The position numbers and the translations under genes are program-made. From contig CAKZSI010000008.1 of the NCBI GenBank assembly GCA_937918935.1, positions 186,001 to 250,000 on the forward strand: DNA of 64,000 bases, read 5' to 3'. Shown here in pieces: positions 6,428 through 63,030 of the stretch; the stretch's first letter is position 1; every line of letters begins with the position of its first letter. The stretch comes from an uncultured Chloroflexales bacterium (GTDB lineage: Bacteria; Chloroflexota; Chloroflexia; Chloroflexales; Chloroflexaceae). A model generated the notes under the pieces. The model was not told the origin of the DNA and did not search any database. It saw only the letters and a program-made list of their open reading frames with translations.

Positions 6428-6432
6428 CGATC

Positions 6433-8668: not shown

Positions 8669-9427
8669 ATGAACACAACACCGAAGGAGCAGGCTCACGC
8701 CCTGATCGCTCAGGGGCGCGCGATGTTGGAGCAGGGCGACCTGGCCCGGGCGACCGACCTGTTAAACCAGGCAGTGCGTCTCTACTGGTCCGCGGGTGAA
8801 CACTACGCTGCCGCGGCACAGATCGGCAACTATGGCTGGGCCTTGCGCCGCAAAGGTCGCCCGGACCTGGCGCGCCCCTACCTGGAGCAGGCCGCCGCCC
8901 TGTTTGAGCAACTCGGTCTGATGGACTTCGCCGAGCGCCACCGCTTCGCCGCCGAGGACGTTAATCCCGGGGTCACCGAGGAGTTACTGGCCAGCCTTCC
9001 GCCCGCGGTACGCGGGGCGCTTGAACGGGGCGACGGCGCGGGCCTGCAAGTGGCCCTCGACGCCCTGCCGCTGATCGAGCGTAACCTGGCGCTTGAGCGG
9101 CTCACTGACGCCGGCGTGATTGCCCCGCTGGACGGCGAGGACGCCGACGGTCGCGACGAGGCGCTGCGGCAGTTCGAGCCGCTGCTCCAGGGCATCGCCG
9201 CAGTGGCCCGCGGCAACGTTGGCGAACGGGCCGAGGTGGAACAGGCGCTGGGCGACATCGAGCGCAAAGGCTGGCGCCTGCGTCGGGCCGCAGAACAGAT
9301 CTGGGCCGGCGAACGGCGCCTGGAACAGCTTACCCGGGAACTGGACAACCTGGATCGCGCCCTGGTGGAGCGCATCCTCGCCATCCTCGATGAGAGCCAG
9401 GGGACGCCGCCACACCCTTCGGAGTGA
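8669..9427 (+). CDS. TPR-repeat protein
   Basis: A 252-residue soluble protein that starts 10 bases after the glycosyltransferase operon, with a purine-rich ribosome site (AAGGAA). Residues 1-80 hold two to three tetratricopeptide-like helix pairs (AQGRAMLEQGDLARATDLLNQAV). The remainder is helical and charged, with a coiled-coil-like segment near residues 205-245. There is no signal peptide, so it is probably cytoplasmic. TPR proteins serve as scaffolds; a partner cannot be named. It closes the plus-strand operon and is followed by a palindrome shared with the convergent hydrolase gene. Confidence 0.7.
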   Translation: MNTTPKEQAHALIAQGRAMLEQGDLARATDLLNQAVRLYWSAGEHYAAAAQIGNYGWALRRKGRPDLARPYLEQAAALFEQLGLMDFAERHRFAAEDVNPGVTEELLASLPPAVRGALERGDGAGLQVALDALPLIERNLALERLTDAGVIAPLDGEDADGRDEALRQFEPLLQGIAAVARGNVGERAEVEQALGDIERKGWRLRRAAEQIWAGERRLEQLTRELDNLDRALVERILAILDESQGTPPHPSE

Positions 9428-31616: not shown

Positions 31617-32876
31617 ATGCCCTTTTTGTACCGCGCCATCGGGCTGGGCTTTCTCGCCTGCTGTCTCCTCGCTCTGGCACTCAAGTTGTTCATTCCCTTG
31701 CCCGCGCCGCTTGGCTATGCCCCGGTTGACCTGGGCCTCGGCCCGCGGGTCGCCCCGGTCGAAGTGGTCATCTGGTATAGCACGGAAAAGCAGGCCTGGC
31801 TGGAGGAGGCCGCGCGTCGCTTTGAGGCCCGCGGCCAAACCGTCGGCGTCCGGCCCATTACCCTCCGTCTGGTGGGTCTGGGTTCGCGCGACATCGCCGA
31901 GCGAGTGGCCCGGCAGGACTGGAGCGTCGCCCCGCGCCCTGTAGTGGTCAGCCCCGCCAGCAGCCTCTGGACCGACACCCTCGCCAGCGAGTGGGCCGCC
32001 CGCAAGCGTAGCCAGATCATCGCCGGCGAGGCGAAGCCCCTGGTGCTGACCCCGCTGGTCGCCGTGGTCTGGGAGCAACGCGCCCGCCTGCTCTGGCCCG
32101 ACAGCGCCACCGCTTTCTGGAACGACCTGCACGACGCCATCGCCGACGAGCGGGGCTGGAGCGCCGTGGCCGAGGCCCGCGGCTTTGGCCCCGATACGCC
32201 CGAAGGCAAAGAGGCGCAACGCTGGGGGCCGGTGAAGCTCGGCCATACCTCGCCGCTCACCTCGAACAGTGGCACGCAGACCCTCGTGCTTATGGCCTAT
32301 GCCTTTCACAACAAAACCGCCGGCCTGACCGTTGCCGACGTCGAAGATCCGGCCTTCCTGAAGTGGCTTGAGGAGATGGAGGTCGGAGTCTACGATCTCG
32401 GCTCAAGCACCGGCACGCTCATGCAACAAATCGTGCAACGCGGGCCGGGTAGCTATGACATTGTCATCGTCTACGAAAACCTGGCCATCGAGTACATGGC
32501 CACCGGCGAGCAACGCTGGAACCAGCCCCTGCGCGTCTACTACCCCCCGGCGACGATGTTCAGCGATCATCCCTATGCCATTCTCGACGAACCCCTGACG
32601 AGCCGCGAGGAGCGCGAAGCCGCCCTGCGCTTCCGCGACTTTTTGCTCCAGCGCCCGCAGCAGGAACTGGCCATGCAAGCCGGCTTTCGCCCCATCGATC
32701 CGGATGTTGTCATGAGCGGCGCCGATCCTGCGAACCCCTTCGTTCGCTACGCCAGCCGCGGCGTCAGCCTCGACATCGCCGCTCAGGTCGAGTCCCCCCC
32801 GGCTGAGGTGCTGGCTGCCCTGCTCAATGCCTGGGACCGGCGCATCCGCCCCCTGAAGCCGGCTCCGACGTCGTAA
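31617..32876 (+). CDS. Membrane-anchored extracellular solute-binding-like protein
   Basis: A 419-residue protein. One N-terminal hydrophobic helix (AIGLGFLACCLLALALKLFI) acts as signal anchor, with no lipobox. The rest resembles a type II periplasmic binding protein: VEVVIWYSTEKQAWLEEAAR, a mid-protein TSPLTSNSGTQTLVL, GSYDIVIVYENLA and AILDEP, with a C-terminal tail. No ABC or TRAP permease is encoded nearby, so a transport role is unsupported. A sensory or assembly function with the next gene is possible. The gap to that gene holds a family B hairpin. Confidence 0.7.
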   Translation: MPFLYRAIGLGFLACCLLALALKLFIPLPAPLGYAPVDLGLGPRVAPVEVVIWYSTEKQAWLEEAARRFEARGQTVGVRPITLRLVGLGSRDIAERVARQDWSVAPRPVVVSPASSLWTDTLASEWAARKRSQIIAGEAKPLVLTPLVAVVWEQRARLLWPDSATAFWNDLHDAIADERGWSAVAEARGFGPDTPEGKEAQRWGPVKLGHTSPLTSNSGTQTLVLMAYAFHNKTAGLTVADVEDPAFLKWLEEMEVGVYDLGSSTGTLMQQIVQRGPGSYDIVIVYENLAIEYMATGEQRWNQPLRVYYPPATMFSDHPYAILDEPLTSREEREAALRFRDFLLQRPQQELAMQAGFRPIDPDVVMSGADPANPFVRYASRGVSLDIAAQVESPPAEVLAALLNAWDRRIRPLKPAPTS

Positions 32877-32964: not shown

Positions 32965-33702
32965 ATGCGCAACGCTTACGCCTACACCGCCCGGCAACCC
33001 CTCGCACTGATGGTGCTGCTCGCCGCCATCCCCAGCGGCCTGCTGCTCTACTGGTGGCTCCTGCCCCTCGGCCTGCTGGCCTACGGCGCCATGGTCCTCA
33101 TCGGCGGGCGCAGCCCTGTGGTGATCACCGCCAGCCAGCGGCCCACGCGGCCCCGTCTGAACAGCACCACCTTCCGCGCCCAGCTCAACGCCATCGAACG
33201 CTCACAGCGCGAGATCGAGCGCGCGGTGGCGCAGGCCAGCCCCCCCCTGGCCGGCCTGCTCGCCCGCATCACTGCCCAGACCCGCGACCTCGTCGAGCAG
33301 GCTTATGCCCTCGCCGACCGGGGGCAGGTGATCGAAGCCTACCTGGCGCAAATCAAGCCCGAAGCGATCCAGGACCGTATCACCAGAATCAACTGGCAGA
33401 TCTCCAGCGCCAGCGATGCCTTCACCCGCCAGCAACTTGAAGAAACCCGCGCCGCGCTCCTGGAAAAGCAACGCAACGCCAGCGACCTGACGACCTACAT
33501 CGGGCGCATCAAGGCCCAGCTCGAACACATCCACGCCAGTCTCGACAACGTGCTTGCCGAAACGGTGCGCCTGCGCACCGCCGATATGGTGAGCGCCAGC
33601 CCTGTCACCAACGAGGTCGCCCAGCGCCTGACCGACCTCAAGAGCGATATGGACATCTTCCAGCGCGTCCTCGATACTGCCATGGCCAGCGCTAACCCCT
33701 GA
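32965..33702 (+). CDS. Membrane-anchored coiled-coil protein, function unknown
   Basis: A 245-residue protein with two adjacent hydrophobic helices at about residues 10-47 (LALMVLLAAIPSGLLLYWWL, LLAYGAMVLIGG). A long helical, heptad-rich cytoplasmic part (about 70-240) follows: AQLNAIERSQREIERAV, ETRAALLEKQRNASDL and QRLTDLKSDMDIFQRVLDTA. I recognise no family. It follows the solute-binding-like gene by 88 bases on the same strand, so joint function at the membrane is plausible. Confidence 0.7.
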   Translation: MRNAYAYTARQPLALMVLLAAIPSGLLLYWWLLPLGLLAYGAMVLIGGRSPVVITASQRPTRPRLNSTTFRAQLNAIERSQREIERAVAQASPPLAGLLARITAQTRDLVEQAYALADRGQVIEAYLAQIKPEAIQDRITRINWQISSASDAFTRQQLEETRAALLEKQRNASDLTTYIGRIKAQLEHIHASLDNVLAETVRLRTADMVSASPVTNEVAQRLTDLKSDMDIFQRVLDTAMASANP

Positions 33703-33957: not shown

Positions 33958-35559
33958 CTACCGCCGTCGCGCGAAATAACTCGTCTCCTCGTCCGCGAAG
34001 CGCAACTCCCACTCATAGGGACGCGCCTGCGCCCAGTCCACGAGCGGCGCCTGCTCGGTATTGCTCAACAGCAGCCCGTCTATGGCGTAGGCGGCCAGCA
34101 GCCGTTCCACCTCCAGCCCGCTGTTAAGCAGTTGGTAGTCTCGCCACTGCTCAAACGGGTACAACTCGATCCGCGGGTCGGCCCACACCGGTTGCTCGGG
34201 CGCCGCCCAGATCAGGTAACTGCCGTAGCTCATAGCGTGGAACAGCCGCGCCGGGCGCTGCGGATCGCTGCGCAGGCGCTCTACCACCGCCACTGGCGTC
34301 TGGGGGTCGATCAGGGCGCCCAGTTGGGGCGGCAGGCCCAGGGCCGGCTTGACCCACGGCAGGGCCAGCGCCAGCAGCAGGGCGATGCCACCCGCCAGGG
34401 CGGCGTTCAGCGCTGGCAGCCCCTGGTACGACCGGCGCGTCGTTGTCTCCCCGGTGCGCCAGCTCGCCAGTTGGACCACCAGCAGCGGCGTGGCTGCCGC
34501 GGTGAACCAGATGTTGTTGCGCACCGCGCCAAGGGCCAGCCAGAGAAAGGCCCCCGCCGTGAGCATATCTACCAGGTCGGGCGTGCGGCGGGCATAGGCC
34601 AGGATCACTATCCCGGCCAGCAGAAAGAGGAAGAAGATCGCCCCGTTCGGGTCGCGAATTGTCGGCGGCGCCCACTCGGTGACCAGACCGGTCACCTGCG
34701 AACTGCTCAGGAGGTTGCGTACATAACCCAGCACCTGCACGCCGCCGGGGTTGAGCAGCCAGCTTGCGCCGGTGAGGGCGCCGGCCAGAGCCAGGTGCCA
34801 GAGGGGCGGGCGGGCGGGCGGAGGGGGCCGCTCCAGCACATCCTCGGCCCGCCCGACGGGCCGGCTGGCCCAGGCGCGCGCTTCGGCCCACTCCTCCATG
34901 CGCCGTCGCACCGCCTCGCCCACGAACACCAGGGCGATCAGCGCCCCGCCGAGCACAAAGGAGCCGTGCAGGTTGACCCACAGCACGCCGAAGAGCGGCA
35001 AGAGCAACAGTGGCCGGTAGAAGCGCGCCGGGTCAGTCCGCCCACCGCACAGTTCCGGTATGCGCCACGCGCTGAGCACGTAGAGCGAGGCAATGAACAG
35101 CGGCAGCGCGTAGGTCTGTGGGCGCACGATCCAGTTGTCAAACGAGGCCGGCATAGTGGCCAGGAGCAAGAACCCCGCGCTCAGCCGCGCCGACCTGCTG
35201 CGCCGCAGGCACAGGCGCAGCAAGAGACCATAGGCCAGCGCCAGCACCAGCGCCTGTACCACGATGATCAGCGGCACGCCGCCGAGCTGGTGCAGCGCGT
35301 AGAGGAACACCTGAGCCAGCCAGCTCTGGTTGTAAAATGGCTCCCCGGCGTGGGTGTATGAAAAGCTGTCAACAGTGGGAATCTCCCCGCTGGCGACGAT
35401 CAGCCGGCCCGTAGCCATGTGCCACCAGAAGTCGTGGGGCGGGATGGGCGTCAACAAGGCTCGCAGGGCGATAAACGCCAGCGCCGCGAACAACCACACC
35501 TGGTCGAGACTTAACCCCGCCAGCGCGATTCTGTTTCGTTGTCCGGCTACCACCTTCAT
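33958..35559 (-). CDS. GT-C-like polytopic membrane protein (paralogue 1)
   Basis: A 533-residue protein. The ATG at 35559 is fixed by its 4-base overlap with the upstream paralogue's stop. About ten to twelve membrane helices lie between residues 20 and 440. The first extracytoplasmic loop carries PHDFWWHMATGRL (Asp43) and YNQSWLAQVFLYALHQLGG. The C-terminal domain has DPRIELYPFEQWRDY. This architecture matches GT-C-type glycosyltransferases, where an acidic residue in loop 1 is catalytic, but I cannot place it in a named CAZy family. It is probably an operon with the upstream paralogue, facing a DPM-type synthase. Confidence 0.65.
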   Translation of the reverse strand: MKVVAGQRNRIALAGLSLDQVWLFAALAFIALRALLTPIPPHDFWWHMATGRLIVASGEIPTVDSFSYTHAGEPFYNQSWLAQVFLYALHQLGGVPLIIVVQALVLALAYGLLLRLCLRRSRSARLSAGFLLLATMPASFDNWIVRPQTYALPLFIASLYVLSAWRIPELCGGRTDPARFYRPLLLLPLFGVLWVNLHGSFVLGGALIALVFVGEAVRRRMEEWAEARAWASRPVGRAEDVLERPPPPARPPLWHLALAGALTGASWLLNPGGVQVLGYVRNLLSSSQVTGLVTEWAPPTIRDPNGAIFFLFLLAGIVILAYARRTPDLVDMLTAGAFLWLALGAVRNNIWFTAAATPLLVVQLASWRTGETTTRRSYQGLPALNAALAGGIALLLALALPWVKPALGLPPQLGALIDPQTPVAVVERLRSDPQRPARLFHAMSYGSYLIWAAPEQPVWADPRIELYPFEQWRDYQLLNSGLEVERLLAAYAIDGLLLSNTEQAPLVDWAQARPYEWELRFADEETSYFARRR

Positions 35560-37112
35560 CGGCGCCACACCTCGGTGCGACCATCGCCAAAGGTGCGCTG
35601 CCAGCCGGGGAGGGCCGGCATCGTGCGCGCCAGTTCAGGCTGCAGTTCTGTGTCAATCACCGCGCAGGCGATCGCGTGCCGGTCGAAAAAGCCGGCCACG
35701 TCGCGTCCCTCGCTCACCGCGCGGTACTCCTGCCACAACTCCAGCGGAAACAACTCCACCCGCGGATCGATAAAGTGCTGCGCGGCAGGATAGAGCGCCC
35801 AGGCCATATACGAACCATAGCCCATCTCGTTGAAGATCCGTCCTGCACATGGCCTCTCCAGCAGATGCTCCACCGCGCCGACAGGTGTCTCGGTGGTGAA
35901 CAGCAACGGTGCACCGGGCAGATCCACGAACAGATTGCGGTAGGCCTGCGGTAAGTTGAGCAAGGGCTTGCTCCAGGGTTGCACTGCCGCCACCAGGGCC
36001 AGCAGGCCGAGGGCCACGGCCAGATTGGCCGCGCCGCCCGCGCCCCGCTCGCGCGGCGAGCGTCGCGTCGCCCCAAAAACCGGGCGCGGCGCCACCAGCG
36101 CCTGCGCGGCGATCGGCATCGCCACCATGCCCCACCAGATCACGTAGCGCATCCCCACGAAGGCCTGCCAGCCCAGGCCACAGACCAGCAGCACCTCGGT
36201 AATACTCGGGCGGCGGCGGGCGAAGGCAAAGGCAGCGATGACCCCCAGCACGCCCAGGTAAAACGCCGCACCGGCCACGCTCCGCGGCGTCGGCGATTGC
36301 CACTCGCCGATCAACTGCTGGCTGGGGGCATTGCCCAGCATATCGCGCACGTAGCCAAACACCCCCGCGCCGAGCGGGTTGAGCAGTGTCGCCGCCAGCA
36401 TCGCCGCCGCCGCCAGGCCCAGGGCGCGCAGGCGCGCCCACGGCAGGGCGCGTGGCTGCCGCAGCACCCGCCGCAGCACCTCGCCGGTCAGAAAGGCAGC
36501 CGTTACCAGCAGGCCCAGCACAAAAGCGCCATGCAGGTTCACCCACAGCGCCATGATCAGCGGCAGCGCCGCCAGCCAGCGGGGGGCCAGGCGCCCCTCG
36601 GCATAGCGGCTCAGCAGCATAAACACCGCCATGAAAGGTAGCCAGGACCAGATCTGGGTGCGAAGCAGCACATTGTTGATCGCCATCGCCCCCGCGGCAA
36701 AAGCCGCCAGCGCCGCCAGCCGCCACGACCCGCTGCGCAGCCGTGCCTCCACCGCGACCAGGGTGAAGACCGCCGCGCCGAGCAGGTTGCGCGCGAACAC
36801 CACCAGCGGAAAGCCGCCCAGGCGGTACAACTGGTAGAATAACCACTCCCCCAGCCAGCTCTGATAAACGTATGGGTGATCGGCCGGCAGCGTCCAGGCG
36901 AACAGATTGGTGGCCGGGATCCCGCTCGTCGCGATCAACTCGCCGGCCTTGAGGTGCCACCAGAAATCGTTGGGCGAGGTAGGCACCAGGCTGATGCAGG
37001 CCGCGATCACGCTTAGCGACAGCAGCACCCACAGGTGGTCGAGGCGCAGTGCCGGCAGGGCACGGGGCGTCGCTCGCGAGGTTGTCAGATCTGCCGCTGC
37101 GTTCGTTTCCAT
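35556..37112 (-). CDS. GT-C-like polytopic membrane protein (paralogue 2)
   Basis: A 518-residue paralogue of the next gene, from the ATG at 37112. Conserved blocks: SPNDFWWHLKAGELI (Asp49), YQSWLGEWLFYQLYRLGGF, PLIMALWVNLHGAFVLGL and DPRVELFPLELWQEYR. About a dozen membrane helices. By comparison with paralogue 1, the loop-1 Asp, the Trp-Trp-His triplet and the C-terminal DPR(I/V)EL block are the invariant points, hence candidate functional residues. It is divergent from the polyprenyl-phosphate mannosyltransferase across 129 bases, which would supply a donor if these are transferases. Confidence 0.65.
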   Translation of the reverse strand: METNAAADLTTSRATPRALPALRLDHLWVLLSLSVIAACISLVPTSPNDFWWHLKAGELIATSGIPATNLFAWTLPADHPYVYQSWLGEWLFYQLYRLGGFPLVVFARNLLGAAVFTLVAVEARLRSGSWRLAALAAFAAGAMAINNVLLRTQIWSWLPFMAVFMLLSRYAEGRLAPRWLAALPLIMALWVNLHGAFVLGLLVTAAFLTGEVLRRVLRQPRALPWARLRALGLAAAAMLAATLLNPLGAGVFGYVRDMLGNAPSQQLIGEWQSPTPRSVAGAAFYLGVLGVIAAFAFARRRPSITEVLLVCGLGWQAFVGMRYVIWWGMVAMPIAAQALVAPRPVFGATRRSPRERGAGGAANLAVALGLLALVAAVQPWSKPLLNLPQAYRNLFVDLPGAPLLFTTETPVGAVEHLLERPCAGRIFNEMGYGSYMAWALYPAAQHFIDPRVELFPLELWQEYRAVSEGRDVAGFFDRHAIACAVIDTELQPELARTMPALPGWQRTFGDGRTEVWRR

Positions 37113-37154
37113 AGGTTTCCGTTCGTTTCTGTGCCTTCTGGTTCGCGCGCGAGG

Positions 37155-37165
37155 GTATAATACCA
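37155..37165. promoter_or_regulatory. Symmetric -10-like element in divergent gap
   Basis: GGTATAATACC, almost palindromic, gives TATAAT toward the mannosyltransferase gene and TATTAT toward the GT-C-like pair. No clear -35 on either side. Confidence 0.4.
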
Positions 37166-37241
37166 TCTGGTTATTACGGGCGTGCCTGGACCCCACGTAG
37201 CCCTGGTCAACGCCGTTTGCGGAAGCGAGGCCTCAGCCACT

Positions 37242-37997
37242 ATGCTTGCAACACCAGCCGGCCCACCGATTTCCCTTCGCCCGGCCCCCGCCGTCGCCGA
37301 TTGCACGGTAGTGGTGCCAACCTACAATGAGGCGGAGAACATCACCCGGTTGATCGAACTCCTGCTCGTCGACCCCCGTTGCCGGGTGCTGGTGGTGGAC
37401 GACGCCTCGCCCGATGGCACCGGGGCGCTGGTGGCCGAACTCGCGTGCGCCGAGCCCCGCGTGGGATTGCTGGCGCGGCCAGGCAAACTGGGGCTTGGCA
37501 CAGCCTACATCGCCGGCTTCCGGCGCGCCCTGGCCGAGGGGGCCGAGTATATTTTCGAGATGGACGCCGACTTCTCCCACGATCCGCGCTATCTGCCCGA
37601 GCTGCGCGCCACTGCCGAGGCCGGGGCGGACCTGGTCATCGGCTCGCGCTACGTGCCCGGCGGCGGTACCACCGATTGGGGTCTGGCGCGGCGGATCATC
37701 AGCCGCGGTGGCAATCTCTACGCCGGCCTGATCCTCTCCCTGCCCGTCGCCGACGCCACCGGCGGCTTCCGCTGCTACCGCCGCCGGGTGCTCGAACGGC
37801 TCGATCTTACTGCCGTGCGCTCGAATGGCTATGCCTTTCAAATTGAGATGGCCTACCGCGCCCACCGGGCCGGGTTTCGCATCGCCGAAGTGCCGATCAT
37901 CTTCCCCGACCGGCGCGTGGGCCGCTCGAAGATGTCGCGCCGGATCGTGATCGAGGCCCTGATCAACGTCTGGAGGCTGCGCCTGGGCCTGATCTGA
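37242..37997 (+). CDS. Polyprenyl-phosphate mannosyltransferase (DPM1-like, GT2)
   Basis: I start at ATG 37242 (251 residues; GAGG upstream); GTG 37182 would add 20 residues. GT2 family motifs: VVVPTYNEAENITRLIELLL, VLVVDDASPDGTG, the DXD-containing FEMDADFSHDP, LVIGSRYVPGG, and the C-terminal VPIIFPDRRVGRSKMSRRI typical of dolichol-phosphate mannose synthases. It makes a polyprenyl-phosphate hexose from a nucleotide sugar on the cytoplasmic side, the donor used by GT-C enzymes. No C-terminal membrane domain, so it is the short (DPM1-type) form. Glucose rather than mannose cannot be excluded. Confidence 0.9.
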   Translation: MLATPAGPPISLRPAPAVADCTVVVPTYNEAENITRLIELLLVDPRCRVLVVDDASPDGTGALVAELACAEPRVGLLARPGKLGLGTAYIAGFRRALAEGAEYIFEMDADFSHDPRYLPELRATAEAGADLVIGSRYVPGGGTTDWGLARRIISRGGNLYAGLILSLPVADATGGFRCYRRRVLERLDLTAVRSNGYAFQIEMAYRAHRAGFRIAEVPIIFPDRRVGRSKMSRRIVIEALINVWRLRLGLI

Positions 37998-38239: not shown

Positions 38240-39301
38240 GTGACAGCCGAGATCGCCGAAAAAATCGACCAGTTCGTGAGCGCCTACCGCGAAGAACTCG
38301 AGCGCACGCGCCGCGAGGCGCAGGAAGTGGAAGTGCTTGTGCGCCAGAGCACCGGAGAAGTAGAGAAGCTCGGTCAGCGCGAGTTGACGGTCTCGAACCG
38401 GGTGCGGGATCTGGAGGTCAACCTTGACCGCTACAGCAAGGACGAGATCAAGAACTTCTACACCGCTGCCCAGGAGGTGCAGATGCGCCTCCAGATTATG
38501 CGCGGCCAGCTCGAACAGGTGCAACTGCGCCGCGATGCCCTGCGCGCCCGCCAGACCCAGCTAGCCGATGTGGTGGCGCTGCTTGAAGAGGTGCGCGACT
38601 CGCTCAAGCATGACACGACCCACTCCGACGATCATGGCCTTGACACTGATACCATGATCGCCAATATCATCCAGTCGCAAGAGAGCGAACGCCTGCGGAT
38701 CTCCCTCCAGATGCACGACGGCCCCGCCCAGGCCATGAGCAACCTGGTCCTGCGGGCCGAGATCTGCCAGCGTCTGCTCGATCGCGATCTGGAACAGGCC
38801 CGCGCTGAATTGAATGGCTTGAAGACGGCTATTAATACGACGCTCCAGGACACGCGCAAACTCATCTTCGACCTGCGCCCGATGACCCTCGATGATCTCG
38901 GTCTCATCCCCACACTTCGCCGCTACACCACGCAGTTTGGCGAAAAGAGCGGCCTCGAGATCAACCTGATGGTGCAGAGCCTGGAGCAGCGGCTGCCCAG
39001 CCATTACGAAGTGACGATCTTCCGCTTCTTGCAAGAGGCGCTCAACAACGTCGCCCGCCACGCCAATGCCAACCAGGTGCGTGTGCTGCTCGACGGCTCG
39101 GGCAACACATTGCAGATCGTGGTCGAGGACGATGGCAGCGGCTTCCACGTGAGCGAGACCCTCAATAACCTGAATGCTCGCCGGCACATGGGCATCGCCA
39201 GCATGCGCCAGCAGATCGAGGTGCTGCTCCGCGGCGAGTTTGGCATCGAGAGCGCCATCGGTCGCGGCACCCGCGTCGCCGCAACTATTCCGCTCCCCTA
39301 G
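38240..39301 (+). CDS. DegS/NarL-partner-type sensor histidine kinase (cytoplasmic)
   Basis: A 353-residue protein from GTG 38240, with GGAGGAA before it. The N-terminal half (1-140) is a DegS-like sensor coiled coil without membrane helices. The HisKA_3 dimerisation domain follows, with ERLRISLQMHDGPAQAMSNL (phospho-acceptor His159), and then a HATPase domain (FLQEALNNVARHANANQVRV, VEDDGSGFHV, GIASMRQQIEVL, GRGTRVAATIP). It would phosphorylate a NarL/FixJ-type response regulator, which is not encoded beside it. The 215-base gap upstream holds the family C copy. Confidence 0.92.
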   Translation: MTAEIAEKIDQFVSAYREELERTRREAQEVEVLVRQSTGEVEKLGQRELTVSNRVRDLEVNLDRYSKDEIKNFYTAAQEVQMRLQIMRGQLEQVQLRRDALRARQTQLADVVALLEEVRDSLKHDTTHSDDHGLDTDTMIANIIQSQESERLRISLQMHDGPAQAMSNLVLRAEICQRLLDRDLEQARAELNGLKTAINTTLQDTRKLIFDLRPMTLDDLGLIPTLRRYTTQFGEKSGLEINLMVQSLEQRLPSHYEVTIFRFLQEALNNVARHANANQVRVLLDGSGNTLQIVVEDDGSGFHVSETLNNLNARRHMGIASMRQQIEVLLRGEFGIESAIGRGTRVAATIPLP

Positions 39302-42421: not shown

Positions 42422-43258
42422 TCACTGTAGACTCACCAGCAACACCCCCACCAGCACTGCTACCACCCCTGCCCACTGCGCCCTGACCAGACGCTCGCGC
42501 AGCAGCATCCAGGCCAGCAGCACGGTGACTGCGCTGAAGATCGAGGCCAGGGCCGTTACCACGCTGACGTAGGCCGTGGCGATGCCGGTGTTGTAGGCCA
42601 GGAAGCCGATGGTATCGAGCGACGTGGCGATTGCGATCATCCCAAGGAGGCGCGGCGAGAGCGGCGCGGGAGGCTGCCGCCGCCAGAGCAGGGCAAGGGC
42701 GGCGACGACGCAGGCCATCACCCGCCCGATGAAAATGGGCCAGGCGATGCCCAGGCCCGCCGTGACCGGCCCGAGCAGGTAGAAAAAGACCCCATAGGCC
42801 AGTGCCGCGCCAAGGGCCGCCGGCACACCCTTCAGCACCAGGGGTTCTCCCCCTCCGCCCCGTGAGACTACCACCACGCCCGCCATCACCAGCGCCACTC
42901 CCGCCAGCGTCACCGGGGCGAGCCGTTCGCCCCCCAGCATGGCCAGGCCGGCGGTAACGACGGCGAAACTGGCGCAGATGGGCGAGACAATCATCACTGT
43001 ACCCACCGCCAGCGCCCGGTAGAGACAGAGCGTTCCGGCAACGTTCAGCGTGTTCACCGCCACCCCCGGCGCCCAGAGCGCCGGGTCGAGCGGCGGCAGG
43101 TCGCGGCGGGCCAGCAGCACCAGACCAATGCTGAGCATCCCCGCGGCCTGAATGTACAGCAACGTCGCCAGTGGCCCGATGCGCCGCGAGATGCGGCTCA
43201 GGGCGAAATCCCCGCCACCCCAGCCCAGGGCCGCCAACAACCCGAAGAAGACGCCCAT
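42422..43258 (-). CDS. EamA/DMT-superfamily transporter
   Basis: A 278-residue protein with about ten membrane helices in two EamA halves. The first begins MGVFFGLLAALGWGGGDFAL; the second (from about residue 145) includes GVPAALGAALAYGVFFYLLG and ends AQWAGVVAVLVGVLLVSL. The family exports amino acids or metabolites, or is of unknown substrate. The start at 43258 is fixed by a TGATG junction with the tiny ORF upstream, which suggests translational coupling. Confidence 0.85.
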   Translation of the reverse strand: MGVFFGLLAALGWGGGDFALSRISRRIGPLATLLYIQAAGMLSIGLVLLARRDLPPLDPALWAPGVAVNTLNVAGTLCLYRALAVGTVMIVSPICASFAVVTAGLAMLGGERLAPVTLAGVALVMAGVVVVSRGGGGEPLVLKGVPAALGAALAYGVFFYLLGPVTAGLGIAWPIFIGRVMACVVAALALLWRRQPPAPLSPRLLGMIAIATSLDTIGFLAYNTGIATAYVSVVTALASIFSAVTVLLAWMLLRERLVRAQWAGVVAVLVGVLLVSLQ

Positions 43259-43359
43259 CACCGTTCTTTGCCCCGAAAGTAACCCACCCGAAAGGCTACC
43301 GCCGCCACCAGCGCAATCAGCCCCAGGATGATCAGACACTCGATCCAGCCAATAGTCAT
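43258..43359 (-). CDS. Possible 33-residue single-helix membrane peptide
   Basis: The frame MTIGWIECLIILGLIALVAA, then VAFRVGYFRGKER, is one hydrophobic helix with a positive C terminus. Its stop overlaps the EamA start (TGATG). AGGA/AGGG lies upstream of the ATG at 43359. It may be a real small subunit or a leader that couples translation. It lies right after the decayed aminotransferase fragment. Confidence 0.4.
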   Translation of the reverse strand: MTIGWIECLIILGLIALVAAVAFRVGYFRGKER

Positions 43360-43402
43360 CGCCCTGATCCTGTAGATTCCTGAACCCCGCGCCCGGGCGA
43401 GG

Positions 43403-43670
43403 AACGCCCTCGGCGATCCGGCGCGGATCGCCGTACGAGAAGTTGAGCCGCAGCGGATTAACCCCGTCACCCCGGGGATGCAACCGCGCACCAGGCACGA
43501 AGTGAATGCCCTGCACCAGCGCCAGTTCGAGCAACCAGCTCGCGTCCGGCCCCGCGGGCAGGCTGAGCCAGAACCCCCCCGGATGGTCGCATCCAGCGTA
43601 CCCTGGCAGGCAATTCGCCCTCCAGGGCGGCGAGCATCGCATTGCGCCGCTCCGGGTAAAGATGTTGCCT
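43403..43670 (-). pseudogene. C-terminal relic of a class I/II (MocR/LysN-like) aminotransferase
   Basis: Two minus-strand frames together read as the end of a PLP-dependent aminotransferase. One gives HLYPERRNAMLAALEGELPA, then RVRWMRPSGG. After a run of seven C on the plus strand (43574-43580) the other continues with GGFWLSLPAGPDASWLLELA, GIHFVPGARLHP and LRLNFSYGDPRRIAEGV. With six instead of seven bases in the run the match becomes continuous (PSGGFWL). The PLP-lysine domain is missing, since a membrane-protein gene and tRNAs occupy the upstream DNA. So it is a truncated, frameshifted remnant. Confidence 0.75.
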
Positions 43671-55844: not shown

Positions 55845-55943
55845 CGGGACGCGGACGTCTGGCCGCCACGCGTCATGGCGGACAGCGTGCCCCTGGGAGC
55901 GCGGGCGTCTCGCCCGCATCCGTCATGGCCGATAGGGTGCAAG
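55845..55943. repeat. Two tandem 50-bp repeats
   Basis: GGGACGCGGACGTCTGGCCG at 55845 and GGGAGCGCGGGCGTCTCGCC at 55894 start two imperfect copies. CGTCATGG recurs exactly 50 bases apart (55871, 55921). The second copy covers the stop codon of the neighbouring glycosyltransferase gene. Confidence 0.6.
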
Positions 55944-58127
55944 TCTTCGAGATATGCCCCGTGTGGCCTCAACCCCTGCGACGAATGTTGCCGCCTGCTC
56001 AGCGAAGACTCCCTTCCCTCTTGAACAGATGCTATGTTCGAGCGAGTTACGGTCATCGGCGCATGTCGGTCGGGGCATGGTGCGCACTTCCGCCCAGTCG
56101 AGGAACACGCCGAGTTCACGGCCATCAGGAGCGATGAAGGTCGGGCTGCGCAGGGCGATCTCGTTGCTCGTCGCGGGGAGCAGCACCCGCACCGTGCGCC
56201 ACTGCTGATCCAGCGTTGCGAGCACGCACCGCTCTCCGGCACAGATCTGCAACGGTACCGCCTTGCCATCGGGCCAGGGGGCCATTACCCGCAGGGTCAG
56301 CAGGCCGGGGAGAGACCCTCCGTCTCCCAGGCGCAGCCGCCCGTCACCGCCAGTCCAGCGGCCAGTGGCCTGATAGATCCGTTCCGCCGGGTAGACCCGG
56401 CCCACATAGCCGAAGTCCAGCCCGTTACCGAGATCGATCGCCGTGGCTGGGCGGGGGCGAAGGAAGCGGTAGCTCCAGTCGGTGAGCCGGCCCGCATCGA
56501 GGTAGCGCCCCTCGAAGGCCCTGCGGGCCTCATCGGCGCGCCCCCGCTCGCGCAGCAAGTCGCCGCGACGGGCGCTGGCGGCGGGGTAGGGGCCGGCCAG
56601 GGCAAAGGCCAGGTCGTAAGCCTCAGCGGCCCCTTCCAGGTCGCCCCGGCGCCGTCGCAGATCACCGAGGACCAGCCAGCCATCGGGGGTCTCGTTCGCC
56701 GCCAGGGCCGCCAGGTAAGCGCGCTCCGCAGCCTCGAGCCGGCCCGCCGCCGCCAATCCGTCACCGGCCCAGCGGTAGAGGCTACGCGGCGTTCCTCCCA
56801 GCGCCCACGACCATGGGTAGTAGCAGAGCAGCGGCAAGAGCGCCAGTGCCACGGGCGCGGCCACTGCCAGGCCAGCCAGGGGCCGCGGCCACGCCCCGCG
56901 CAGCAGCCGATCAGCGCCGAAGCCCGCCAGTGGGAGCAGAGCGATGAACAGAAAGTGCCGGTAACGCCCCTCGGCATGTGTCAGCAGCGTCACAGCGATG
57001 CACAGCGCCATCCACAGGGCCAGCAGTATGGCCAGCCCATCGCGCCGTGCCAGCCCATGCGCCAGACCGAAGCCGGCCAGAAGCAGTACGAGCAGGTAGA
57101 GCACGTCATCGAGGAGCAACCCCGCCAGGAACACCGCCGGTGGCGGGTCAGCGTAGTAACTGGGCAGTAGAAAGCGGTCCTGAATGATTTTCACCGCCCA
57201 GAGGCGGCTCCACTCCACTGGCAGCTTCCGTAGCAGGATGGAGGGGTCCTCGCGCAGGCGCGCCAGCCCGCGCCGCGTGGCCTCGCCGGCCCGCGCCACG
57301 GGGTCGGGGATGGCTTCGAGGCTGCGGTTAATTGTTCCCAGGTCCTCGCGCGGCTCGTAGAAGGCCCACAGGTTGTACGCAAAGCCCGTCTCGACCAGCA
57401 CGCAGGCCGAATAAACCCGGCAGTTCCGGAGAGTCCATGGTGCGATCACCAGCGCCGCGCAGACCGCTGGCAGCAGGGCCGCCAGGGCGCCACGCGGCCA
57501 CAGCCAACCCCTGCGCCGCATGGCGACGCTGGCGACCCACAGCATCAGCGCAGGCAAAAACACCAGCGCCGCCGAACGGGTAAGGCTGGAAAGCCCGAAC
57601 AGCGCGCCGGCCAGCGCCAGCCGCCATGCGCCTCCGCTACGCCGCCAGACCGCCAGGGACAGCAGCGTGCCGCCGAAGAGCAGGCTAAAGAGCGTCTCGC
57701 TCATGTACAGACTGGCGAAGGTGGCGTTGGTCTGGAGCAACGCCGCGGCGAGGGCCGCCAGCAGCGCCGCCCGCTCGTCGCTGGCGGGCGCCAGTTCGCG
57801 GGCCAGCCGGTACACCAGGTAGACCACCGCAACACTGGCGGCAATGTTCGGCAGCGCGGCGCGCTGCAGATCGCCGCCAGCCAGCCAGAGGCTGCCGGCG
57901 AGGAATAGCGGGTAGAGCGGTGCGCGCAACCAGCGCCACTCCGCGTAGAATGACCATCCCTGGCCGGCGAGCAAGTCGCGGGCCACACGCAGGTACTCAA
58001 CCTCGTCGTTGGCCGGTTCATGTAACGGCTGCGCCCAGAGGAGCAGGCGCCAGCCCAGAGCCAGCAGAAGAATCAGCAGCAGTGGCGCCACCTGTGCCAG
58101 GCGCCGGCTGGAGATTGATGATTTCAC
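55923..58127 (-). CDS. GT39-family membrane glycosyltransferase
   Basis: A 734-residue paralogue of the genes at 4019-6427 and 6433-8658: loop motif DEVEY (41-45), RAPLYPLFLAGSLWL, YMSETLFSLLFGG, TGFAYNLWAFYE, then a TPR-like helical segment (about 470-545) and a beta-rich tail reaching FLDWAEVR. The gene at 4019 ends exactly at LDWAEVR, but this one runs 52 residues further into low-conservation sequence whose stop lies in a tandem repeat, suggesting loss of the ancestral stop. No neighbouring sugar gene. Confidence 0.8.
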   Translation of the reverse strand: MKSSISSRRLAQVAPLLLILLLALGWRLLLWAQPLHEPANDEVEYLRVARDLLAGQGWSFYAEWRWLRAPLYPLFLAGSLWLAGGDLQRAALPNIAASVAVVYLVYRLARELAPASDERAALLAALAAALLQTNATFASLYMSETLFSLLFGGTLLSLAVWRRSGGAWRLALAGALFGLSSLTRSAALVFLPALMLWVASVAMRRRGWLWPRGALAALLPAVCAALVIAPWTLRNCRVYSACVLVETGFAYNLWAFYEPREDLGTINRSLEAIPDPVARAGEATRRGLARLREDPSILLRKLPVEWSRLWAVKIIQDRFLLPSYYADPPPAVFLAGLLLDDVLYLLVLLLAGFGLAHGLARRDGLAILLALWMALCIAVTLLTHAEGRYRHFLFIALLPLAGFGADRLLRGAWPRPLAGLAVAAPVALALLPLLCYYPWSWALGGTPRSLYRWAGDGLAAAGRLEAAERAYLAALAANETPDGWLVLGDLRRRRGDLEGAAEAYDLAFALAGPYPAASARRGDLLRERGRADEARRAFEGRYLDAGRLTDWSYRFLRPRPATAIDLGNGLDFGYVGRVYPAERIYQATGRWTGGDGRLRLGDGGSLPGLLTLRVMAPWPDGKAVPLQICAGERCVLATLDQQWRTVRVLLPATSNEIALRSPTFIAPDGRELGVFLDWAEVRTMPRPTCADDRNSLEHSICSRGKGVFAEQAATFVAGVEATRGISRRLAPYRP

Positions 58128-58266: not shown

Positions 58267-61200
58267 TCAATATGGTGCATCGTACAGCAAGGGTAGCGCG
58301 AAACCATCACCAACTGCTTCCAGCGAGTAGCGATTGCGTCCACCCGAACAGACCACTACGCGCCACCAGCCACTCTCGGGTGAAGGAGTGCGCTCCTGAA
58401 CCCAGACGCCATCATCGGACAGCCTTCCTTCGATCCCACCGGTAAGGCCCAGAGGATCGTAGAGCTGGCCTGGGGCGTAGAAGCGCAGACGAACGCCGGA
58501 AGAGCTTGCTTCTTCCTCATCAAGGTCGAAATTATTCAAGTACAACTCAGCAGTGCCTGGCGCCACATACACCCACGTCGTCATGCACAGCGGCGCATCT
58601 GCTGGCGGGCGAACTTCGACGCCCCCAAGCAGTGTGCCAATACGAATTGGCACACCGAGCGGCGACAGGTCGAGGGGGCGGGTGAGCGGCGAATTATCGT
58701 GATCGTATCCGACGCGCACGGCCCAGTAGTTCTCGTCGTCGCCATCGGTTTGCGCGCGCAGCAGGTAGCGACCACACGGCTGCGGGTCGGCGATCACTGC
58801 CAGCGGCGCCCATGCCTCCACGGCGGCGTCTGGTTCGAAGGAGCGACTGGCAATCAACCCGCTCCCCGCCAGGGTGATGTTTGTCCCGTCGGGCGTAACG
58901 CGGCTACCCGTATCGTAGAGTTCGAACAGGGTCGTGTTCGGCCCATCGGCTGCCTCAGGATCGACCACGTCTACACTCCCGCCAGGAGCAACATGCACTG
59001 CCGGGCTCCATAGCTCAACGCTAAGCGGCCGTCCGGCAGGCCAACTGCACGGCAGCGCGATCTCCAGGAAGCTCGCGCCTCCCACCCTGCTGGTGAAGAG
59101 GAAGGGCGCAACCTCCAGCGGCGAAAGGTTATCTTCCTCGATCAATATCGTCGCTACTCCCGGAGTACCCAACGTCGTACCCACGCCGGGAAGCAGGCGC
59201 ACATTCACGGTCTCGTAGCGATCCTCTGGTGCATCATCGTTGTCAAGGATCGGGAGCACGACAATCTGCTCTGTCTCGCCCGGAGCAAACGTCAGTGTGC
59301 CAGAGACCGGCGTGTAATCCTCATCGGGAGTGGCCGTGCCGGCGAGGGTTTCGTAGCCGACAGTAACGGTATAGGTCGCGGTCTGCGCGAGGCGCACCAC
59401 CAGCCGCGCCTCGCCGGCATTTTCAGGCGCCACGCTCTCGGCCTGCACGAAGCTCGCAGGCACAAGATCATTATCCAGATTGGTGAGGCGGATCTGCGTC
59501 GCCCCGGCCAGTGGCGCGTACCCCGAGGCAGGATCAATGCTCACGAAAACTGAGTAAGGAATTGGACCATCAAACAGTGCATCGTCAACCCCGCGCACCG
59601 TCACTGTGATCGGGACGTTCCAGGTCAGGGCATCAAAGACCAGCGGCATGGTCGGGTCACTCACCTGCGCCTCGGTCGGATCGCTTGTCACCACCCACAC
59701 CAGTACCGGGGCAAGAGGCTGGCTGGTGAGCCGGACGGTGAACGTTACGCTGTCGCCATCTTCACTGGTCGTCCACTCGGATGGCGCCGAGACTGCCAGG
59801 CCAGCCGTGTCATTGTCGGTGATCTCCACCGTAACGACAGGCCGCAACTCGGGCGCATCACGATTGTAGAACGGGTCCGCACTGGAAGCGCCATGGCGGA
59901 TCAGACTGGCATGGACGCTCTGGTTGCCGTCACCGTCCTCGTCCACTGCATCATCCACGGCACGGACCTGCACGGTCTGGGCCACGTTCCAGGCTGCCGG
60001 AGTGAAGGTGAGTGTTGCCGGGCTGGTCACCACCTGGCCAGGCGGGACCTCCACCTCAACTTCCTGGTCGAAGCTCAGGGTCACCGTTACCGGAGCCGTG
60101 GGCTGGCTGCGCAGGCGCACAGCATAGGAGACGGACTGCGCAGGGCCGGGCGCCTCGGTCAGACGCAGGAGTCGTGGGCTGACCAGCACCCCGGCCTCGT
60201 CATCATCGAGCACCCGCACGGCGAGTGTGCCCGGCGGTAGAGTACGGTAGACGGGATCAGTGGTCTGGATGTCGTGCCTGATCGTCGCCATAGCATCCGC
60301 TTCGTCCACGTCATTGTCAGGGGCGGTTATGGTCACCGTTCGCTCGCGGTTATTGCGATCGAAGACCAGGGTAGTTGGCGACACAGTTACGGGCCCGCTT
60401 GCCACCAGCTCCACCGTCACCGGGAGCACCGGTTCAGAAGCCAGGCGAACCTGGTATGACAGGGTGCGCCCCTCGGTCACCGTCAGCGGGCCGACGGGGA
60501 GGAGCAGCGCCGCAGTGTCATTGTCGGTGATCTCCACCGTAACGACCGGCCGCAACTCGGGCGCATCACGATTGTAGAAGGGGTCGGAACTGGTTGTGCC
60601 ATGGCGGATCAGACTGGCATGGACGCTCTGGTTGCCGTCACCGTCCTCGTCCACCGCATCATCCACGGCACGGACCCGCACGGTCTGGGCCACGTTCCAG
60701 GCTGCCGGAGTAAAATTCAGATTCACTGAGCCGGTCGCAACACCGTTGACCGTCACCTCCTGATCGAACGTGATGGTCACTGTCACCGGTTCGGTGGGCT
60801 GGCTACGCAGGCGGACAGCGTAGGTCCCGGACTGCGCAGGGCCGGGCGCCTCGGTCAGGCGCAGAAGTTGTGGGCTGACCACCACCCCAACGTCATCATT
60901 GTCAGTAATCTCGACCCTGACGACCGGCCGCAACTCGGGCGCATCACGATTGTAGAAGGGGTCGGAACTGGTTGTGCGATGGAGGATCAGGCTGGTATGG
61001 ACGCTCCGGTTGCCATCACCGTCCTCGTCCACCGCATCATCCACGGCACGGACCTGCACGGTCTGGGCCACGTTCCAGGCTGCCGGAGTAAAACTCAGAT
61101 TCACTGAGCCGGTCGCAACACCGTTGACCGTCACCTCCTGATTGAAGGTGATGGTTACCGTCACCGGTTCGGCAGGCTGGCTACGCAGGCGGACAGCGTA

Positions 61201-63030
61201 GGTCCCGGACTGCGCAGGGCCGGGCGCCTCGGTCAGGCGCAGAAGTTGTGGGCTGACCAGCACTCCGGCGTCATCGTTGTCGCGAATGGCGACCATAACC
61301 GGCGGGACGGCCAGGCGGGCGTAGAACGGATCATTGCTGACGACCCGATGCGTCACCCGGCCCGGGTGGGTCTCCTGCTCGTTGTCACCCTCATCAACAT
61401 CATCATCAACCGCCGTCAGACGCACCTCCTGCGGAACACGCCAGTTGGCCGGCGTAAACACGAGCCTGTCAGGAGTGACCGCCACCTGGGTGTCGGGCGT
61501 CAGTTCGACGGTCACCGGGGCGGTCGGTTCGCTTTCCAGGACCACGGTATACGCGGTCGAGGCGCCTTCGGCCAGGGTAAAGGACGTCTGGCTGAGGGTT
61601 ACGCCGGCAGTGTCATCATCCACAATCGTAAACAGATACACGGAGGGACTACCCAGGCCGGCATTGCTGGGCGTGCCGAGGGTAACGACGAGGTACTCAT
61701 CATCCTCGTCAATCTGGTCATCAACAAGAGTGAAGCGCAGGCGGGCGCCGGTTGCGCCAGCGGGGATGATCAGCGCGCCAGCGCGCAGGGAATGATCGGC
61801 CGGACCGGCGGTACCGCTCACGGCATAGGGAACCACGACATCAATGGCAGCGGGCCGGTCCAGTTCAACCGTTATGGCTGCCGAACCGGCATTTTCGGGC
61901 AGGATGCGCCGTTCACCGGCGAAGCGCGCCGTAGGAGGCGCATCATTATCGGTAATCGTCAGTATCGCCACGCTCGATCCAACAATCTCGGCATTGGCAG
62001 GGTTGGAGAGGCGGATCTCAACGGTTTCATTGGGTTCACTCAGTTCATCGCTCAGGATCTCGATGGTAAGCGAGCGCGCAATCGTACCGGGAGCAAAGGT
62101 GAGCGTACCGCTCGCGGGGCGGTAGTCAACACCGGGGGTGGCGGTGCCACCGCCGGTCGCATAGGCGACGGTAACGGTAGTCGAGGCGAGCCGGTTGAGG
62201 CGCACTTCCACCGTGGCCCGGCCCTGAGCCTCACTGACGACCAGCGCCGTGGTGGCAAAGCTCACTTCGAGCGGGGGATCGGGCGTACTGGTGGGCGTGG
62301 GCGCACTGGTTGGCAGTGGCATCGCGGGCGTCTGGGTCACCGGAGGCGTCGCCGGGGGCGTCGTTGGCGACGGCGGCGGAGTCTGCACCGGCGCCGAAGG
62401 GCTGGGCAACGGTGTGGCCGTGGGAGGTGGCGGCGTAGCCGTGGGAGGTGGCGGCGCCGCCGGCGGTTCATTCGGATTGGTGATGGGGGTCGGCGACGCT
62501 TGCTCCTGCGGTGTAGGCGTGGGTATCACCTGGCGCACCGGCGCAGGAGCAGAGGTCGGGGCACGGCGTGACGAGACGACCGGCACGGGGCCAGGGACCA
62601 GCGTTGGTGAGGCGGTCGGAACAGGTGAGGGTGACGCGGTGGGCGTCGGGGTTTCCGCAGGAATGGGTGTCGTCGTCGGCTGGCCGATGACGACAATAGG
62701 CACGCTGCTCGGCGGGGGCAGATTACCCGGAGCACCGGAACTCGACTGATCAAGTTCCGCGGCGGCAATCACCTCAGGATTGATTGGCGGGAGCAGCGGA
62801 CCGAACGGCCAGAAGCCATAATCTGCCCGCATGCGAGCGGAGAGATCGCCCGCGTAGCGCGCCACTCTGGGCGAGGTAAGATCGAAGGCAATACGAGCGA
62901 TCGTCGTAACACCTGCGAGTACGGCGAGGAGCGCCAACAGGATGAGCCAGAGCAGCGGTCGTGATAGGATGCGCCGTTCAGGCAGCCTCGGCCATCGAGC
63001 GCGACGAGTTTTCAGGGCTTGTGGTGTCAT
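58267..63030 (-). CDS. Giant Calx-beta repeat surface protein
   Basis: A 1587-residue protein. One N-terminal membrane helix (LLWLILLALLAVLAGVTTIA), then a 150-residue Pro/Thr/Ser-rich stalk (about 110-250), then roughly nine Calx-beta-type units. Examples: VSFATTALVVSEAQGRATVE, AILTITDND, and three near-identical copies of a unit with LRLTEAPGPAQS, DEDGDGN and VEITDND. The C-terminal 350 residues form a distinct beta-rich domain with three Cys. Calx-beta domains bind Ca2+ and mediate adhesion, so a cell-surface adhesin role is likely but inferred. The start overlaps the kinase gene by 53 bases. An alternative internal start is possible. Confidence 0.85.
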   Translation of the reverse strand: MTPQALKTRRARWPRLPERRILSRPLLWLILLALLAVLAGVTTIARIAFDLTSPRVARYAGDLSARMRADYGFWPFGPLLPPINPEVIAAAELDQSSSGAPGNLPPPSSVPIVVIGQPTTTPIPAETPTPTASPSPVPTASPTLVPGPVPVVSSRRAPTSAPAPVRQVIPTPTPQEQASPTPITNPNEPPAAPPPPTATPPPPTATPLPSPSAPVQTPPPSPTTPPATPPVTQTPAMPLPTSAPTPTSTPDPPLEVSFATTALVVSEAQGRATVEVRLNRLASTTVTVAYATGGGTATPGVDYRPASGTLTFAPGTIARSLTIEILSDELSEPNETVEIRLSNPANAEIVGSSVAILTITDNDAPPTARFAGERRILPENAGSAAITVELDRPAAIDVVVPYAVSGTAGPADHSLRAGALIIPAGATGARLRFTLVDDQIDEDDEYLVVTLGTPSNAGLGSPSVYLFTIVDDDTAGVTLSQTSFTLAEGASTAYTVVLESEPTAPVTVELTPDTQVAVTPDRLVFTPANWRVPQEVRLTAVDDDVDEGDNEQETHPGRVTHRVVSNDPFYARLAVPPVMVAIRDNDDAGVLVSPQLLRLTEAPGPAQSGTYAVRLRSQPAEPVTVTITFNQEVTVNGVATGSVNLSFTPAAWNVAQTVQVRAVDDAVDEDGDGNRSVHTSLILHRTTSSDPFYNRDAPELRPVVRVEITDNDDVGVVVSPQLLRLTEAPGPAQSGTYAVRLRSQPTEPVTVTITFDQEVTVNGVATGSVNLNFTPAAWNVAQTVRVRAVDDAVDEDGDGNQSVHASLIRHGTTSSDPFYNRDAPELRPVVTVEITDNDTAALLLPVGPLTVTEGRTLSYQVRLASEPVLPVTVELVASGPVTVSPTTLVFDRNNRERTVTITAPDNDVDEADAMATIRHDIQTTDPVYRTLPPGTLAVRVLDDDEAGVLVSPRLLRLTEAPGPAQSVSYAVRLRSQPTAPVTVTLSFDQEVEVEVPPGQVVTSPATLTFTPAAWNVAQTVQVRAVDDAVDEDGDGNQSVHASLIRHGASSADPFYNRDAPELRPVVTVEITDNDTAGLAVSAPSEWTTSEDGDSVTFTVRLTSQPLAPVLVWVVTSDPTEAQVSDPTMPLVFDALTWNVPITVTVRGVDDALFDGPIPYSVFVSIDPASGYAPLAGATQIRLTNLDNDLVPASFVQAESVAPENAGEARLVVRLAQTATYTVTVGYETLAGTATPDEDYTPVSGTLTFAPGETEQIVVLPILDNDDAPEDRYETVNVRLLPGVGTTLGTPGVATILIEEDNLSPLEVAPFLFTSRVGGASFLEIALPCSWPAGRPLSVELWSPAVHVAPGGSVDVVDPEAADGPNTTLFELYDTGSRVTPDGTNITLAGSGLIASRSFEPDAAVEAWAPLAVIADPQPCGRYLLRAQTDGDDENYWAVRVGYDHDNSPLTRPLDLSPLGVPIRIGTLLGGVEVRPPADAPLCMTTWVYVAPGTAELYLNNFDLDEEEASSSGVRLRFYAPGQLYDPLGLTGGIEGRLSDDGVWVQERTPSPESGWWRVVVCSGGRNRYSLEAVGDGFALPLLYDAPY

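Follow-up and report, generated by a model that had tools for sequence, protein, structure and literature searches.

A candidate GT-C glycosyltransferase family represented by two overlapping paralogues beside a DPM1-type synthase gene in a Chloroflexales genome

What is the function of two overlapping genes for paralogous membrane proteins that lie back to back with a gene for a polyprenyl-phosphate sugar synthase and match no catalogued family? The question is raised by a locus in a stretch of 64,000 nucleotides, hereafter the window, from an uncultured Chloroflexales bacterium (assembly GCA_937918935.1, contig CAKZSI010000008.1, positions 186,001 to 250,000); the host genome is 4.6 Mb in size, and its nearest named relatives are Candidatus Chloroploca and Oscillochloris. 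Judging from the predicted structures, we consider it likely that the two proteins, A and B, are anciently diverged members of an uncatalogued GT-C glycosyltransferase family of the GT-CA type, transferring a lipid-carried sugar outside the membrane. What is new is a widespread family, uncatalogued in Pfam, NCBIfam and PHROGs, inside the known GT-C superfamily.

The paralogous pair and its predicted fold

The three open reading frames (ORFs) of the locus were found where a first-pass annotation of this DNA had placed them:

33958–35568, minus strand: paralogue A, 536 aa, predicted GT-C membrane glycosyltransferase (GT-C matches with Z up to 19.3)
35556–37196, minus strand: paralogue B, 546 aa, predicted GT-C membrane glycosyltransferase (GT-C matches with Z up to 19.9)
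37182–37997, plus strand: GT2, 271 aa, predicted DPM1-type polyprenyl-phosphate sugar synthase, divergent from B

As that annotation had described, A and B are overlapping paralogues: they share 13 bases (35556–35568), and their similarity is far beyond chance, since ~530 residues align at 35% identity (E 4e-64). The 5′ ends of B and GT2 overlap only with mechanical GTG starts; because B has further ATGs within its frame, at codons 11 and 29, the true starts of B and GT2 may be further apart, and translation of B may begin at one of these codons. A promoter and terminator scan gave no signal above shuffles. The motifs that had been named were all found in both proteins and are listed here (transmembrane helices are abbreviated TM) with the other residues discussed below:

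35419–35433, minus strand: DFWWH of A (residues 46–50); D46 immediately precedes the first juxtamembrane helix (47–60)
36954–36968, minus strand: DFWWH of B (residues 77–81); D77, a candidate catalytic base, is the third residue of the first juxtamembrane helix (75–91)
QSWLA of A (residues 81–85) and QSWLG of B (residues 112–116)
36654–36662, minus strand: R179-T-Q181 of B (usually RPQ), second outer loop; the counterpart of R179 in A is R149
36528–36545, minus strand: WVNLHG of B (residues 218–223), outer end of TM5
34963–34980, minus strand: WVNLHG of A (residues 197–202)
36300–36305, minus strand: E298-W299 of B, a second conserved acid in the outer loop between TM7 and TM8 (in A, 34672–34677)
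36135–36149, minus strand: RYVIW of B with R350, outer end of TM9/TM10 (in A, 34507–34521); a candidate lipid-phosphate ligand
35751–35768, minus strand: DPRVEL of B (residues 477–482), outer C-terminal alpha/beta domain
34162–34179, minus strand: DPRIEL of A (residues 464–469)

A quick tree, with uncertain long branches and with one planctomycete protein (L110) trimmed to residues 1–520, puts B in a group with Anaerolineae proteins (15 rows, support 100) and A in another with its Chloroflexales orthologues (5 rows, support 100). The split between A and B thus seems to predate the order, and each protein appears to have kept its own identity.

AlphaFold2 gave models of high confidence for both A (mean pLDDT 92.5, pTM 0.92; model mdbc3e5fc8e1c) and B (mean pLDDT 89.7, pTM 0.89; model m6cf361f29dd5). 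In a Foldseek comparison of B with the PDB, all 22 matches at E ≤ 1e-3 were GT-C enzymes or complexes containing one, the C-mannosyltransferase DPY19 standing first (E 7.1e-7) and oligosaccharyltransferases (OSTs) also leading. VIA-align placed the OST subunit STT3 at the top for both models, with Z 19.9, root-mean-square deviation (rmsd) 4.6 and 435 aligned residues for B (residues 46–546) and Z 19.3, rmsd 4.5 and 440 aligned residues for A (residues 15–536); DPY19, AglB, Pmt4, PglB, ArnT, ALG12 and arabinosyltransferases follow. The best Z values exceed ~14, the usual top score for mainly helical models that lack a clear match, and the aligned regions extend from TM1 to the C-terminal end. 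Among the matches listed (50 per model), the structures are GT-C enzymes, STT3 complexes or GPI-transamidase chains (PIG-U); O-antigen-ligase/polymerase structures are not among them, an absence that is no test of relation. Comparison with GT-C folds had been set beforehand as a test of the suggestion that A and B are GT-C membrane glycosyltransferases, and both models match such enzymes over their whole length.

Both models have ~11 TM helices, an Asp at the tip of the first juxtamembrane helix and, on the outer side, a C-terminal alpha/beta domain; in B, TM1 (52–70) is followed by the short helix 75–91. By these models, A and B have the GT-C fold, with its seven-TM core and juxtamembrane helices. 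With inner and outer loops assigned by us from the model of B, Lys and Arg account for 19 of 77 residues in inner loops vs 5 of 119 in outer loops, so the positive-inside rule is obeyed and the near-invariant polar residues fall on the outer face: D77, W114, R179, Q181, N220, H222, E298, R350, D477 and D538 of B are all found there. Such a gathering on one face of the model is what a GT-C active site predicts. A catalytic Asp at the apex of juxtamembrane helix 1 is described for PimE, ALG6, ArnT and PglB (PMC12041525), and in DPY19, a metal-independent enzyme with a single outer acid as base, Glu71 is described as taking the role of that Asp (PMC10154233).

Conserved residues and relation to named families

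Conservation was assessed in three sets of relatives. Plain similarity gave 22 rows (set A2), and 20 weak matches of the first search formed a divergent set; both were gathered without the WxNxHG pattern. The wide set (A3) comprises 86 of the 93 full ORFs known at that stage, the two of the window and 84 of 91 others; among the seven left out are near-copies, one partial ORF and the weak second ORF of locus L077. Because the relatives L033–L112 were collected by the pattern W[VAT]N[LVA]HG, the invariance of W218, N220, H222 and G223 in A3 arises by construction and carries no weight.

The loop Asp (D77 of B) is present in 22/22, 85/86 and 20/20 proteins of the three sets, respectively, and the lone exception, an Actinomadura protein, has Asp residues two and three positions earlier, so that the conservation of this residue, on which the proposed GT-C assignment had been staked, shows no loss. 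Equally stable are R179 (86/86 in the wide set and 20/20 in the divergent one), an acidic residue at the position of E298 (86/86 and 20/20) and R350 (86/86 and 19/20), and all four positions are shared by both paralogues. In the sets gathered without the motif, W, N and H of WVNLHG are invariant in 22/22 rows, and the divergent relatives keep N220 and H222 in 19/20 each and G223 in 13/20. In the DPRVEL block, D477 and R479 are each found in 70/86 members.

The proteins had been said to match no named family, and the libraries bear this out: neither A nor B has a credible match in Pfam, NCBIfam or PHROGs, and the few weak rows are not glycosyltransferases. Hints of CrcB (Pfam E 2.1, NCBIfam E 0.032) were dismissed, as they cover fewer than 50 residues and lie far below the cut-off. 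B has no credible sequence match in the PDB, nor has the A3 profile, which gave one chance match to an oomycete RXLR effector (E 0.038). When the 86 members were compared with Pfam one by one, no glycosyltransferase family, STT3 (PF02516), PMT_2 (PF13231) and GT87 (PF09594) included, was among the matches listed (25 of 57 families), and the sole strong match there was to TPR repeats in one protein, probably, from its length, the product of planctomycete locus L110. This protein (4547–6859 of that locus) has 771 aa and is far longer than other members. In the open-access literature, to which this search was confined, the strings DFWWH, WVNLHG, WANLHG and WVNVHG were not found, and none of the titles listed described such a family.

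The family is widespread. A single-sequence search matched it in 98 of 201 genomes sampled from Chloroflexota, and a scan of a wider collection gave at least 80 loci with members. A tree of the scan rows places them in at least seven named phyla (Chloroflexota, Planctomycetota, Thermodesulfobacteriota, Acidobacteriota, Actinomycetota, Pseudomonadota and Myxococcota), plus five rows in no named group. Among the loci listed, 14 of the 77 that hold a full-length member ORF carry two members, and so do two plasmids. Five pattern matches in viral contigs included no relative, and a viral fold library gave no match at E ≤ 1e-3.

STT3, AglB and PglB (GT66) share with A and B the GT-CA core, the Asp at the tip of the first juxtamembrane helix and the outer C-terminal domain, and give the highest Z, whereas A and B are shorter and lack both the WWDxG mark of OSTs (0/86 members) and a DxD-like metal site in the second outer loop (residues 168–185 of B; 0/86). 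Membership of STT3/OST (GT66, PF02516) was therefore rejected: WWDxG and DxD are missing, and Pfam gives no STT3 match for A or B. DPY19 (GT98), the top Foldseek match for B, reaches Z 17.4, close to the scores of other GT-C families, but is 9% identical, with no sequence relation found, and has Glu71 in place of the Asp of A and B. PMT_2 proteins (ArnT and RgtA-D-like; PF13231, GT83) resemble the pair in structure (ArnT, Z 14.2–14.7) and, distantly, in profile over TM2–TM6, whereas A and B carry another motif set (RPQ, WxNxHG, EW and R350), and A has no Pfam match to PMT_2. In GT87/PimE (PF09594), often encoded next to members in the phylum, the loop Asp blocks align with those of the family, and PimE matches A at Z 9.5; the proteins of the A/B family are larger and have an outer C-terminal domain, and A has no Pfam match to GT87.

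Profile comparison of the family with the PMT_2 proteins of the phylum gave 77% probability (E 2e-5 for one pair) vs 10% with the reversed profile, and with GT87 23% vs 4% reversed, a short alignment in which the D77 block falls opposite the loop Asp of GT87. For scale, PMT_2 vs GT87 gave 94% and PMT_2 vs STT3 74%. These profiles were built from 3 (STT3), 22 (PMT_2) and 29 (GT87) proteins chosen by position and hydrophobicity, and the E-values are for single pairs. By the tests run, the family is, at the level of sequence, a separate GT-C branch, set apart by Pfam, NCBIfam, PHROGs and profile comparison.

The GT2 neighbour, the proposed mechanism and its rivals

The first-pass annotation had taken the divergent gene to encode a polyprenyl-phosphate mannosyltransferase, which agrees with our searches: GT2, on the opposite strand, matches Glycos_transf_2 of Pfam (E 1.1e-32), and among solved structures it is closest in sequence to dolichol monophosphate mannose synthase (5mlz, E 3.3e-30). 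By its matches, GT2 is a DPM1-type synthase; no hydrophobic segment was found in it, and its next best match in its own genome, which holds 14 other GT2 matches, has 37% identity. GT2 lies divergent from B, with A behind B, at all eight fetched loci from three Chloroflexales families (L001, L004–L009 and L011). The pairing with a donor synthase is real within part of the Chloroflexales and is not a family trait.

Elsewhere, members have other neighbours from glycosylation pathways. In the phylum, 9 of 47 members have a GT87 GT-C gene no more than 1 kb away vs 0.2 expected, where the 47 are the listed family places in genomes searched for both and the expected value is that for randomly placed genes; fragments of a single gene (G000 A, G024) were merged, and weaker matches (e.g. 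G028 and G052) were left out. The betaproteobacterial plasmids pAZI09 (L206) and pSTJ1 (L207) have the order GT2, methyltransferase, GtrA, member, member. Both GT-C ORFs of these plasmids score ~300 bits against the family profile and are labelled 'hypothetical protein' on both records, and the GtrA of pAZI09 was confirmed by Pfam. The two plasmids count as one observation, because one cargo island is common to both. In two betaproteobacterial orders, this island, nearly identical on the two plasmids, comprises an integrase-domain protein, PRTRC protein D and the GT2-methyltransferase-GtrA-GT-C-GT-C set beside conjugation genes, and is apparently a mobile glycosylation cargo. A three-component layout for extracytoplasmic glycosylation, with a GT-A synthase, a GtrA flippase and a GT-C transferase, is described in PMC8035078; the set is complete on the plasmids, and the window has GT2 beside the GT-C pair, whereas no GtrA was detected in its genome and the GT-C slot holds two paralogues of an unnamed family. 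In Geomobilimonas, a TMEM260/PMT_2-like protein and a PTPS_related membrane protein precede a member, which is followed by a methyltransferase and a GT2 protein.

On this basis, a mechanism can be proposed. The cytoplasmic GT2 would charge polyprenyl phosphate with one sugar, possibly mannose by its nearest solved relative, a putative flippase would turn the lipid-sugar outward, and A and B would each pass the sugar to an extracytoplasmic acceptor, which may be a glycan, a lipid or a protein. D77 (D46 in A) could serve as the catalytic (general) base, and the outer arginines R350 and R179 may hold the lipid phosphate, with no metal-binding DxD of the kind found in OSTs. The donor is probably linked through a monophosphate, unlike OST donors. 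A and B might differ in acceptor or in the order of addition.

Several observations weigh against this picture. R350 is replaced by Ser in 1/20 divergent relatives, and H81 of DFWWH, kept in only 56/86 members, is not conserved, so that the functional unit would be the Asp and not DFWWH as a whole. PIG-U, a structural homologue of GT-C enzymes, is described as a case in which the GT-C fold exists without glycosyltransferase activity (PMC12041525). In another family of the order, GT2 is absent within ~1.5 kb at 6/6 loci (L012, L013, L015, L016, L020 and L021), a related contig from a metagenome-assembled genome (L034) has the pair without GT2, and in the wider set the fetched DNA contains a GT2-like ORF, in several cases a remote GT2, at only 17 of 80 listed loci. 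The same genome has 12 PMT_2 and 3 GT87 matches, possible rival users of the donor, and no GtrA was found in it; a two-sequence profile, which is insensitive, found none in the window or near the 80 listed loci. The pair is not universal, as four sampled genomes from another genus of the same family have a weak match (G052, G134) or none (G086, G118). The genes flanking A and B in the window encode a solute-binding protein and a histidine kinase and are not glycan genes. The earlier suggestion that A and B use the GT2 product stands as regards the adjacency at 8/8 loci and is weakened by the 6/6 loci without GT2, the low overall count and the rival GT-C enzymes.

In a rival account, A and B are GT-C enzymes supplied with donor from elsewhere, while GT2 serves the PMT_2/GT87 enzymes and lies next to the pair incidentally or for regulatory reasons. 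We hold this to be possible though doubtful: the PMT_2, GT87 and additional GT2 matches of the genome, the lack of a nearby GT2 in most of the wider family and the enrichment of GT87 genes beside members in the phylum are in line with it, whereas the divergent GT2 that accompanies the tandem pair in three families, and GT2 with GtrA beside the tandem pair on the plasmid island, are not. It is improbable that one or both proteins are non-catalytic scaffolds with a GT-C fold, binding lipid or partners like PIG-U of GPI transamidase; the chains of that complex do occur among the structural matches (Z 11–12), and one paralogue could be the enzyme and the other a scaffold, but the loop Asp, E298, R179 (R149 in A) and R350 occur in both and are near-invariant across the 86 and 20 relatives.

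The top structural matches of both models and the outer C-terminal domain would suit OSTs that move a lipid-pyrophosphate-linked oligosaccharide to protein, a role that we judge very improbable given that WWDxG and the DxD-like pair are missing from all 86 members compared, that STT3 is not among the Pfam matches listed, that a search of the window's own genome with STT3 gave nothing over the cut-off, and that the neighbours elsewhere (GT2, GtrA, GT87) belong to pathways with monophosphate donors. An unrelated polytopic membrane protein, such as a transporter, mis-modelled as GT-C is scarcely credible: the CrcB matches that could hint at it are short and below the cut-off, against two high-confidence models with whole-length GT-C matches.

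Our reading of A and B as GT-C transferases of lipid-carried sugar can be extended to a new CAZy-level GT-C family in at least seven phyla, metal-independent and nearest in fold to STT3/DPY19, with the Chloroflexales pair as an obligate couple that draws on a single polyprenyl-phosphate-mannose pool to glycosylate an envelope polymer or exported proteins; in this full form the proposal seems to us rather unlikely. The family occurs in about half of the sampled genomes of the phylum and in several other phyla, yet finds no credible match in Pfam or NCBIfam; recognizing it as GT-C would extend the known capacity for extracytoplasmic glycosylation among many environmental bacteria that are little studied. 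The loop Asp is a clear residue to probe, and the plasmid set of GT2, GtrA and the pair offers a compact operon for activity assays.

Surroundings of the pair in the window

On one side of the pair lie the solute-binding protein (31617–32876) and a 245-aa protein without a credible Pfam family (32965–33702, plus strand). The histidine kinase (38240–39301, plus strand; DegS/HisKA_3/HATPase_c), without an obvious membrane domain match, follows just downstream of GT2, and a related ORF cluster recurs near family members at L033, L036, L037, L038, L049 and L107.

Three consecutive PMT_2-matching membrane proteins of 685, 802 and 741 aa are encoded at 1965–8658 (plus strand; GC ~0.71), the first also TMEM260-like and the third with TPR, and a TPR protein (8669–9427) comes next; the window thus holds a further array of GT-C genes. 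Another PMT_2 membrane protein with TPR repeats (55923–58127, minus strand, 734 aa) has an architecture that we take to be reminiscent of eukaryotic TMTC O-mannosyltransferases. EamA-like proteins include lipid-sugar flippases, so an EamA-type transporter at 42422–43642 (minus strand) is a candidate, if a far one, for the flippase. A 1587-aa Calx-beta repeat protein (58267–63030, minus strand), possibly a large surface protein, is a conceivable target of glycosylation.

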